Made by a program: the position numbers and the translations under genes. From an uncultured Myxococcales bacterium (GTDB lineage: Bacteria; Myxococcota_A; Polyangia; Fen-1088), in the NCBI GenBank assembly GCA_937889515.1, contig CALAOV010000326.1, forward strand, positions 1 to 33,686: a stretch of DNA of 33,686 bases. The letters run 5' to 3'. Positions 22,291 through 25,053 of the stretch are shown piece by piece. Position 1 is the stretch's first letter. Each line of letters opens with the position of its first letter. The notes under the pieces were generated by a model, which had not been told where the DNA came from, ran no database searches, and worked only from the letters and a program-made list of their open reading frames with translations.

Positions 22291-24876
22291 ATGGGCTCCG
22301 GGCGTCCCATACCCGATTCCGTTCCGGCCGTGCTCGGCCGCGGCGCCATCATCGGGCGCTACGTGGTGCTCGGTCTGGTCGGGCGCGGCGGAATGGGCGA
22401 GGTGTACGGCGCGTACGATCCGGAGCTCGAGCGCAAGGTCGCGGTCAAGCTCCTGCGCATCAAGCCCGGCAACGGCGTCACGCTGAGCGAAGGGCGCCAG
22501 CGCACGCTGCGGGAAGCGCAGGCCATCGCGCGCCTCTCGCACCCCAACGTGGTGGTCGTCTACGACGTGGGGACCTTCGAGGACAAGGTCTTCATCGCGA
22601 TGGAGTTCGTCGAGGGAACCACCTTGACGTACTGGCTGGAGGCGCAGCCGCGGACCTGGCAGGAGATCTTGAAGGTGTTCGTGGCGGCCGGGCATGGGCT
22701 GGCGGCGGCGCACGACAAGGGCCTGGTCCACCGCGACTTCAAGCCCGACAACGTCATGGTGGGCCGCGACAACCAACCCCGCGTGATGGACTTCGGGTTG
22801 GCGCGGCAGGCCAGCGACAAGCCGGCTCAACCGCGAACACCGCCCGATCCGATCCCCATCACGATCTTCAGCTCGTCGCCCGGCGTCGACGGCGAGAGCG
22901 TGACCCGGGTGCTGCAAGAGGGGGCGGCGGCGATAGAGGCTGGGACGCCGGTGTCGGGCGCGTTCGACATGCACCTCACGCGAACCGGCGCGATGATGGG
23001 GACGCCCACGTACATGGCGCCCGAGCAGTTCCGCGGCCTGGCGACCGACGCGCGCACCGACCAGTTCAGCTTCTGCATCTCGCTGTACGACGCGCTCTAC
23101 AAAGAGCGGCCCTTCGCGGGCGACGGGATCAACGCGCTGGCGACCAACGTCATCCGCGGCGACGTCCGCAACGCGCCGGCGAATTCCAAGGTGCCGCTCT
23201 GGCTGCGCAAGGTCCTGCTGCGCGGCCTGCGACCGAATTCTGCCGACCGCTGGCCGTCGATGGAGGACCTCATCGACGCGCTCGGGAAAAACCCGACCGT
23301 CAAGCGGCGCCGGTGGGCGATCGTGTGCGGCGCCGTCGCCCTCACCGCCGGCTTGGCCGTGGCCGCGCGCCCGCTGCTGACCGAGAACCGCAAGGTCTGC
23401 GTCGCAGGCCCGGAGAAGCTGGCCGGCATCTGGGACCTGCCGCCGTCCGACGGCGCCGTACCGCTCCGCCATGCCCAGATCCGCCAGGCCTTCCTACAGA
23501 CGGGCAAGAGCTACGCGCCCGACGTCTTCGCGACCGTCAGTCGGGCATTGACGGGCTACGCGCAACGCTGGGCCGACATGTACAAGGAGACCTGTGAGGC
23601 GACCCAGCTCCGCGGTGAGCAATCGGCGGAGGTGCTCGACCTGCGTATGTCTTGCTTGCAAGAACGGCGGGACGGGTTGCGGGCCTTGACCGACGTTTTC
23701 AGCCAGGCGACGGGCGAGGTGGTCGAGAACGCGGTGAGTGCCACCAACGCGCTCGGCACGTTCGATCGCTGCACCAACGTTCCGCTCCTGCGCGCGGTCG
23801 TCAAGCCTCCGGAAGATCCGGCGACGCGCGCCAAGGTGAACGAGTTACGAACCCGCGTGGCAGATCTTAAGGCGCGCTTCGATGCCGGACGGTGGAAGGA
23901 GGCGTTGAAGGATGCGCCATCGCTCGTTACCGCGACGACGACGCTCGGGTATCAACCGCTGCTGGCCGAGACTCTCCTCCTCCAAGGCAACATGATGATG
24001 AGCGCGGGCAATCCCTCCGCCGCGGAGAAAACCATCGTCAAAGCCTACTGGCGTGCGGACGCGTCACGGCACGACGAGCTTCGCGCCGAGGCTGCGGCTC
24101 TGCTGGTTTTTGTCGTCGGATTCCAAGAGGGACACCTAGACGACGCCGATCGGTGGGCGACCGCGGCCCAATCGGTGCTCGAGCGGCTGGGCGGGCACGA
24201 GCTGTTGCAGGCGTGGTTGCTCAATGACCTCGGGTGCGTCTACTCCTTGCAGGGTCGGAAGGAGGAGGTGGTCCAGCTCATGAAAGAGAGCCTCCGGCTC
24301 AAAGCGAAGGCTCTCGGCCCAGATCATCCGGACGTCGGAATATCCGAAGGAAATCTCGGCCTCGCGCTTAGAGAACTCGGTCGAGCTGATGAGGCCCTCA
24401 TTCACATCGATCGAGCTATCGGATTGCAGGAGCGAGCACTGGGCGCTGGACACCCGGCGATCGCCACTGAGCTCAACAACCGCGGTGAGATCCTGAACGC
24501 GCTCGGACGCTATCAAGAGGCGCGCCTCGCGTTTCAGCGCGCACGCGTCGTCTGGGAGCGGGAGCTGGGGCCGGACAACCTGAACCTCGGTTACGCACTG
24601 ACGGGTATCGGTGTTAGCCATCTCGCAGAAGGGAACCCAGCCAGCGCGTTGGTGCCGCTCGAGCGCGCGTTCAAGATTCGGGCTGCCCAGGAAACCGAAC
24701 CCTCCAGGCGCGCTGAAACCAGCTTCGCGTTGGCGCGGGCCCTCTGGGACTCGAACCGCGATCGCATGCGCGCCCTCGTCCTCGCTCAAGAAGCGAGGAC
24801 GGACTACGGCCGGACCCCCGCAAAAACGAAGCTAACTGAGGTCGACCGCTGGCTTGTGAATCACGGCCCGAGATAG
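22291..24876 (+). CDS. Serine/threonine protein kinase with C-terminal TPR repeats
   Basis: GRGGMGEVYGAYDPELERKVAVKLL, HRDFKPDNVMVG, DFGLAR, GTPTYMAPEQF; TM near VCGAVALTAGLAVAARPLL; TPRs (LGPDHPDVGISEGNLGLALRELGRADEALIHIDRAI...). Confidence 0.95.
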   Translation: MGSGRPIPDSVPAVLGRGAIIGRYVVLGLVGRGGMGEVYGAYDPELERKVAVKLLRIKPGNGVTLSEGRQRTLREAQAIARLSHPNVVVVYDVGTFEDKVFIAMEFVEGTTLTYWLEAQPRTWQEILKVFVAAGHGLAAAHDKGLVHRDFKPDNVMVGRDNQPRVMDFGLARQASDKPAQPRTPPDPIPITIFSSSPGVDGESVTRVLQEGAAAIEAGTPVSGAFDMHLTRTGAMMGTPTYMAPEQFRGLATDARTDQFSFCISLYDALYKERPFAGDGINALATNVIRGDVRNAPANSKVPLWLRKVLLRGLRPNSADRWPSMEDLIDALGKNPTVKRRRWAIVCGAVALTAGLAVAARPLLTENRKVCVAGPEKLAGIWDLPPSDGAVPLRHAQIRQAFLQTGKSYAPDVFATVSRALTGYAQRWADMYKETCEATQLRGEQSAEVLDLRMSCLQERRDGLRALTDVFSQATGEVVENAVSATNALGTFDRCTNVPLLRAVVKPPEDPATRAKVNELRTRVADLKARFDAGRWKEALKDAPSLVTATTTLGYQPLLAETLLLQGNMMMSAGNPSAAEKTIVKAYWRADASRHDELRAEAAALLVFVVGFQEGHLDDADRWATAAQSVLERLGGHELLQAWLLNDLGCVYSLQGRKEEVVQLMKESLRLKAKALGPDHPDVGISEGNLGLALRELGRADEALIHIDRAIGLQERALGAGHPAIATELNNRGEILNALGRYQEARLAFQRARVVWERELGPDNLNLGYALTGIGVSHLAEGNPASALVPLERAFKIRAAQETEPSRRAETSFALARALWDSNRDRMRALVLAQEARTDYGRTPAKTKLTEVDRWLVNHGPR

Positions 24877-24885
24877 TCGAGGCGA

Positions 24886-25053
24886 TCAGGCCGCGACGAC
24901 CCCGCGCGCATTGTGGTTGTTCTGCCAGATGCCCAACCCCGCCTTGATCGCGGTCCTAACGCGCAGGCCGGAGCGGGTGTGGTTCGCGGTGTATAAGCCG
25001 CCCGCTTTGATCCCCGTAGTCACCTTGAGTCCCGCGTTCGATTTCGTCTTCAT
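24886..25053 (-). CDS. Small basic repeat peptide (candidate secreted/RiPP-like or antimicrobial peptide)
   Basis: MKTKSNAGLKVTTGIKAGGLYTANHTRSGLRVRTAIKAGLGIWQNNHNARGVVAA; SD-like AAAGGGA ahead of ATG; internal duplication; no Asp/Glu. The longer 116-aa ORF from a TTG is considered less likely. Confidence 0.6.
   Translation of the reverse strand: MKTKSNAGLKVTTGIKAGGLYTANHTRSGLRVRTAIKAGLGIWQNNHNARGVVAA

Follow-up and report, generated by a model that had tools for sequence, protein, structure and literature searches.

Putative tandem-unit peptide precursors with an Asn-His motif in Myxococcota and a C39-peptidase ABC exporter as their probable export route

Introduction

A short open reading frame lies on the reverse strand of the window, i.e., the whole stretch of 33,686 nucleotides from an uncultured Myxococcales bacterium that was analyzed here. 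From the sequence alone it had been described as an orphan basic peptide with an internal duplication, possibly a RiPP or bacteriocin-like precursor. The locus raises the questions whether this frame is a gene, how its product might be processed and exported, and what purpose the product might serve.

Results

The open reading frame and its flanks

Translation verified the description of the frame: the peptide has 55 amino acids, including nine Lys/Arg, one Tyr and one Trp, and contains neither Asp/Glu nor Cys (Table 1). The internal duplication was also verified, with a BLOSUM62 local score of 51 versus a maximum of 34 in 2000 shuffles of the peptide's own residues (0/2000 reached 51). A ribosome-binding site, AAAGGGAAA, is located about 5-7 nt before the ATG, AAGGGGAAATGACA-ATG is found at the equivalent position of the orthologue in the genome G001, and similar purine-rich sites precede most homologues. 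Pfam analysis revealed that the flanking genes encode Pkinase + TPR_12 and DUF155/RMND1, in agreement with the Ser/Thr kinase-TPR and RMD1 genes named before. Rfam yielded no match within the window, and neither a sigma-70-type promoter nor a convincing terminator was seen.

Table 1. Features of the peptide locus in the window (positions in nucleotides).
Feature	Position	Strand	Basis
Ser/Thr kinase with TPR domain, convergent	22291..24876	(+)	Pfam, hydropathy
Peptide precursor gene, two units, 55 aa	24886..25053	(-)	Translation, homologues, duplication beyond chance
Unit 2 C-terminal core LGIWQNNHNARGVVAA, residues 40-55	24889..24936	(-)	Unit alignment
Unit 2 proposed signal GLRVRTAIKAG, residues 29-39	24937..24969	(-)	Unit alignment
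Unit 1 variable core GLYTANHTRS, residues 19-28	24970..24999	(-)	Faster divergence than signal 1 between G000 and G001
Unit 1 proposed export/cleavage signal AGLKVTTGIKAG, residues 7-18	25000..25035	(-)	Conserved in 59 units, common to non-NH exporter cargo; cut site predicted
Ribosome-binding site AAAGGGAAA	25059..25067	(-)	Sequence

A family of NH peptides

Among 59 relatives, a protein search revealed clear homologues of the window peptide within its own genus and family. When a profile was run against 290 genomes of the class, members appeared in two additional families, and members from other classes came to light among 377 genomes of the phylum. The peptide is, hence, not an orphan. The genomes are large, GC-rich and contain many kinase-TPR genes, as would be expected for Myxococcota. 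Three matches of the class profile search (G099, G263 and G258, E about 0.004-0.009) had no NH units upon inspection and were dropped. A mobile origin was considered and rejected, because plasmids and phages gave no convincing match. No NH peptide matched a Pfam, NCBIfam or PHROG model, and a description of the motif was looked for in the literature and not found. Judged from these searches, the NH peptides are a widespread, undescribed family. The short length and the blank Pfam and NCBIfam results would also fit a chance open reading frame, but homologues in several classes, the conserved start and ribosome-binding site, and a duplication beyond chance make this explanation practically negligible.

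The unit follows the pattern GL[KR]V[KR][ST]x[VI]KAG, then three to six variable residues, then NH. An alignment of 59 units from 18 precursors yielded G-L-[KR]-V-[KR]-[ST]-x-V-[KR]-A-G, a variable stretch of 3-6 residues, and Asn-His as the conserved part. Homologues with differing repeat numbers, which the sequence-only reading had proposed to look for, indeed exist, with one to about nine units. Single units are present in G003 (MKNVKTKSGVRAGGFALNHNRGLL, 24 aa) and in a second NH gene of the window's genome, G000 (C381:22176-22262; L069 9674-9781; 35 aa, MEAKRQVRHQRASGLKVRTAIRAGKISANHNQRAL). Four units were found in G003 and in G001 C229, six in G238 and about nine in G461. In G002, the ends of two contigs, C410 and C97 (L032 end / L033 start), fall inside an NH repeat array, and both are probably parts of one gene that was broken during assembly at identical repeats.

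Comparison of the G000 and G001 orthologues revealed non-synonymous differences in 2/18 codons of signal 1 and in 6/10 codons of core 1, while signal 2 was intermediate (4/11 codons). The repeated GL[KR]VxTxIKAG stretch had been regarded as a duplicated core; it is probably not the product, and the variable part is the stretch from KAG to NH. A crosslink at the Tyr and Trp, which had also been proposed, is not borne out by the family, as most units lack an aromatic residue between KAG and NH.

The units have a regular length of 16-21 residues, and hydrophobic and basic residues alternate, as would be seen in a secreted structural repeat, such as a beta-solenoid or an amyloid-like fibre with type I-like export. 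This reading is very improbable, because members with one unit of 24 and 35 aa exist, the conserved stretch is also found as a single copy in other cargo that is unrelated and has no repeats, and in microviridin precursors (see below), and structure prediction for the 55-mer alone, uninformative in itself, gave a low-confidence helix (pLDDT 66.7) and no strands.

Co-occurrence and linkage with an exporter

The exporter cassette encodes an HlyD protein, a C39-peptidase-ABC protein, and a second ABC half-transporter without C39 (ABC2). In the class sample the exporter was detected in 54/290 genomes, among them every one of the ten that gave a strong NH match (Fisher test without kinship correction, 2.4e-8). 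The large exporter searches scored only two or three candidates per draft genome assembly, and thus absences are less secure than presences.

In three genomes (G238, G278 and G172) the peptide gene adjoins all three genes of the cassette. In G298, from another class, the NH peptide, a kinase-FGE gene and the whole cassette lie within one stretch. Linkage is partial in G074, where the peptide adjoins HlyD and the start of the C39-ABC gene, and in G002, where the gene order is peptide, kinase-TPR, ABC2. In the window's genome, C39-ABC and ABC2 are located on C111, a different contig from that of the window peptide; the match was reported with one in-frame stop, and an HlyD gene was looked for beside it and not found. 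The statement that no maturation enzyme is evident nearby is true for the window, but the genome encodes this C39-ABC exporter elsewhere. In the draft G461 of the phylum sample, the peptide and the TPR protein are present and C39-ABC was not found.

The C39 domain matches PCAT1 and ComA, and its catalytic Gln/Cys/His/Asp are invariant in 35/35 exporters. The cassette architecture is like that of NHLM/NHLP export (TIGR03794, TIGR03796, TIGR03797), which also comprises an HlyD protein, a C39-ABC and a second ABC without C39. However, membership of the exporter in NHLM was rejected, because the scores are far under the family cut-offs (43.9/156.2 for TIGR03794, 182.8/853.3 for TIGR03796, the C39-ABC, and 120.2/709.4 for TIGR03797). 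In addition, the cargo of the present exporter has no NHLP or Nif11 leader.

A putative export and cleavage signal

Twenty further exporter neighbourhoods were read. Many loci without NH peptides contain small ORFs that share the KVKSxVKAG stretch and have unrelated tails, e.g., MKVKTNVKAG-YIGRKGAGNSARFE, MKRKTSVRAG-PRVQN, ..LVVKTGLRAG-VARPIVVC and ..GRFRTGVRAG-GKDDPPKNTCKPWLCPMPMYG.., most of them preceded by a purine-rich ribosome-binding site. In 431 kb of exporter flanks, 21 signal-bearing small ORFs (four of them NH peptides) were counted with a regular expression that had been loosened once the first matches had been seen, versus a mean of 4.4 and a maximum of 8 in shuffles; 19 of the 21 lie at most 3 kb from a cassette. 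Positions -8 to -10 were outside the expression, and there the non-NH ORFs agree with the NH-family pattern.

In the window's family, seven relatives of the genus g6 have the exporter and no NH peptide, and instead carry a peptide of 22 aa, MKKTSGIKVKSRVRSGGARFPR, or variants much like it (clear in six, partial in one). Neither an NH nor a g6-type peptide was found in the exporter-less relatives G005, G006, G008, G010 and G012. Within the family f1, the 13 exporter-positive genomes carry an NH or MKKTSGIKVKSRVRSGG peptide (12 clear, one partial), and the five exporter-negative genomes carry none. A further case is G268 (L205 12386-13197), where the same exporter clade is accompanied by two microviridin precursors with a PFFARFLE-type leader, several TxKxPSD cores (TLKYPSD or TLKHPSD) and an adjoining MvdD-type ATP-grasp gene. 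In these precursors KRVRTGVKAG is located exactly between leader and core, where the leader would be cut. Because other cargo shares the stretch in front of unrelated tails, including the microviridin leader/core junctions, KVKSxVKAG is most likely a C39 cleavage and export signal that is read by the present exporter clade.

Several additional small genes were observed. In G054 (L193 12984-13187) and G046 (L194 5588-5782) the residues after the signal form a conserved core, CKPWLCPMP[ML]YG[IV]P, that contains two Cys. G410 (L195 12948-13374) has three tandem paralogous genes of 24-30 aa directly after the exporter, with MK[AV]KTNVKAG and variable tails. The sequence MQQKKGVKSGVKVKTNVRAGSCKG is identical in G116 and G129 of one genus (L216, L217), and in G116 it lies outside the exporter neighbourhood that was read.

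The simplest site for the cut would be behind the invariant glycine or behind the residue that follows it. In canonical C39 leaders, positions -4, -7 and -12 are hydrophobic, and the leader ends with GG, GA or GS (PMC10885120). With the invariant glycine as -1, position -4 of the NH units fits, with V/I/L in 53/59, but position -7 is K/R in 52/59, position -12 is mostly H/S/A/K, and the end is AG in 54/59 and GG in three. A cut one residue later would give GG in about 38/59 units and GA in seven. Like the double-glycine leaders of PCATs (ComC/ComA, LahA/LahT), the proposed NH signal is a short stretch before a core, with a hydrophobic -4 and Gly at -1, and it is linked to a C39-peptidase ABC exporter with the catalytic Gln/Cys/His/Asp. 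In contrast to these leaders, it is present in tandem copies, often without a separate N-terminal leader. Because of the basic -7, the misfit at -12 and the invariant AG end, it is not a canonical double-glycine leader.

The service of the same exporter clade to microviridin-type graspetides in G268 raises the alternative that the core is an enzymatically modified RiPP. Radical SAM genes near the NH peptides of G525 and G172 would also fit. However, the NH loci share no conserved modifying enzyme, Cys is absent, aromatic residues are few, and Asn-His is the sole fixed feature of the core, and so modification before export appears unlikely. Neither radical SAM nor ATP-grasp was retained as a common maturase; an ATP-grasp gene was recognized at none of the NH loci examined and was found only in G268. 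Of the genes for which a check of co-occurrence had been proposed earlier, C39-ABC transport genes are present in the genome, and radical SAM genes are not conserved at NH loci. Unlike microviridin-type graspetides, the NH peptides lack a TxKxPSD core and a PFFARFLE leader and do not adjoin an ATP-grasp gene, and the window peptide is devoid of the Asp/Glu of a Thr/Ser/Lys-Asp/Glu core. The NH peptides resemble multi-core RiPP precursors (cyanobactin-like, plesiocin-like) in having several cores per precursor, but in NH precursors a separate copy of the proposed cleavage signal belongs to each core, and a conserved modifying enzyme is missing. From the claim of a RiPP or bacteriocin precursor, the processed, exported precursor remains, based on conservation, variable unit number and the tie to a C39 exporter; a conserved modifying enzyme does not.

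The two radical SAM-like genes lie a few kb from the NH peptides (G525, L141 6172-7026; G172, L066 9264-11150) and were recognized by eye as CNRGCHYC and B12-binding type.

A TPR protein as a proposed partner

In G238, G278, G461 and G525 the gene immediately after that of the peptide encodes a TPR protein, about 360-390 aa in length, and in G074 such a gene is close downstream. In G000, G001, G002, G003, G004, G009 and G172 the TPR gene adjoins the exporter. These proteins form one family, with 27-81% identity to the G238 protein and common signatures such as HNLGG; compared with Pfam, they gave generic TPR_12/TPR_10 matches only. The family was found in 12 of the 13 NH genomes (the exception is G298). 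About 27 other exporter loci, among them those of the g6 genomes and the second cassettes of G238 and G172, yielded no member. The association with NH peptides had a Fisher value of about 2e-9 uncorrected, and of 7e-4 on a rough lineage count. On the exporter tree the NH cargo is scattered, with four changes, at least two of which are forced by well-supported branches. In independent contrasts the TPR protein moved with NH or showed no difference, and never moved in the opposite direction; two well-supported contrasts are too few for significance. No signal peptide was evident at the protein starts that were read, and thus the TPR protein probably resides in the cytoplasm.

RRNPP systems (Rap-Phr, PlcR-PapR, Rgg-SHP) have been described in Gram-positives (PMC10075063). 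Like these, NH loci have the gene of a small, putatively exported peptide next to a TPR protein gene, although in the window's genome the TPR gene is located beside the exporter and not beside the peptide. The export route differs from that of RRNPP systems.

The kinase-TPR protein of the window has one likely transmembrane segment at about residues 342-362, as revealed by hydropathy, and therefore its TPR domain would face outside the cytoplasm. It is 55% identical to the G002 kinase-TPR protein, the gene of which lies between ABC2 and the NH peptide. The kinase-TPR gene is convergent with the peptide gene in G000, G001, G002 and G004, and a role as sensor is possible, as judged from its sequence. 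The kinase was rejected as a universal partner: other lineages have a free-standing TPR protein, and G298 (L140 9426-12167) has instead a kinase fused to an FGE-sulfatase (formylglycine-generating-enzyme-like) domain, the gene of which is oriented divergently to an array of about eight NH units.

A bacteriocin or another antimicrobial peptide might use the same export, and either the TPR protein or the kinase might then act in immunity or in regulation. The small, cationic peptides, the C39 exporter of NHLM-like architecture, and the faster divergence of the core compared with signal 1 would agree with that. On the other hand, no recognizable immunity protein was found, the cores are short and mostly hydrophilic, and up to nine near-identical units are present, so that a bacteriocin appears somewhat improbable. 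TPR is not known to be an immunity fold.

Discussion

The features described above suggest the following model, in which the cut site, the export, the role of the TPR protein and the purpose are predicted. The window gene would encode a precursor of short secreted peptides, with each unit consisting of a signal and a short variable Asn-His core. The signal, GL[KR]V[KR][ST]x[VI]KAG, would be recognized by a dedicated exporter, the genes of which lie in another part of the genome. This exporter comprises a C39-peptidase ABC protein and a second ABC half-transporter, and an HlyD fusion protein usually accompanies them. The C39 domain would cut past the glycine of KAG, and the pieces predicted to leave the cell are GLYTANHTRSGLRVRTAIKAG and LGIWQNNHNARGVVAA. 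The cytoplasmic TPR protein would be the partner specific for NH-type cargo, as an escort or receptor, and in some lineages a kinase would join them, the TPR domain of which lies on the far side of a transmembrane segment. We consider the combination of precursor, exporter and signal, leaving purpose aside, to be probable.

The product is most likely an exported linear peptide, and perhaps it acts as a signal. The latter is suggested by the multi-copy precursors, the short cores and the dedicated TPR partner. Intercellular signalling is tentatively put forward as the likeliest purpose, and antimicrobial activity comes second. A wider proposal, possible but doubtful at present, is peptide signalling outside the Gram-positives, in which multi-copy pheromone precursors of tandem cleavage signals and cores are cut and exported by a C39 transporter that recognizes the non-canonical KVKSxVKAG signal, and are sensed by a dedicated TPR protein or a kinase with a TPR ectodomain, and in which the same signal also marks a large hidden set of further small exported peptides, including graspetides. 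To our knowledge, peptide-TPR signalling has not been described in this bacterial group.

Taken together, these bacteria may be producers of short secreted peptides of a kind that had escaped recognition, possibly signals, and the pairing of NH peptides with a TPR protein makes the hypothesis of a peptide and its receptor directly testable. If KVKSxVKAG is an export and cleavage code of the present exporter clade, it would provide a simple handle for dozens of unannotated exported peptides of 15-100 aa in these genomes, with predicted mature ends, and the C39 protease reading it would have a specificity unlike that of LahT.
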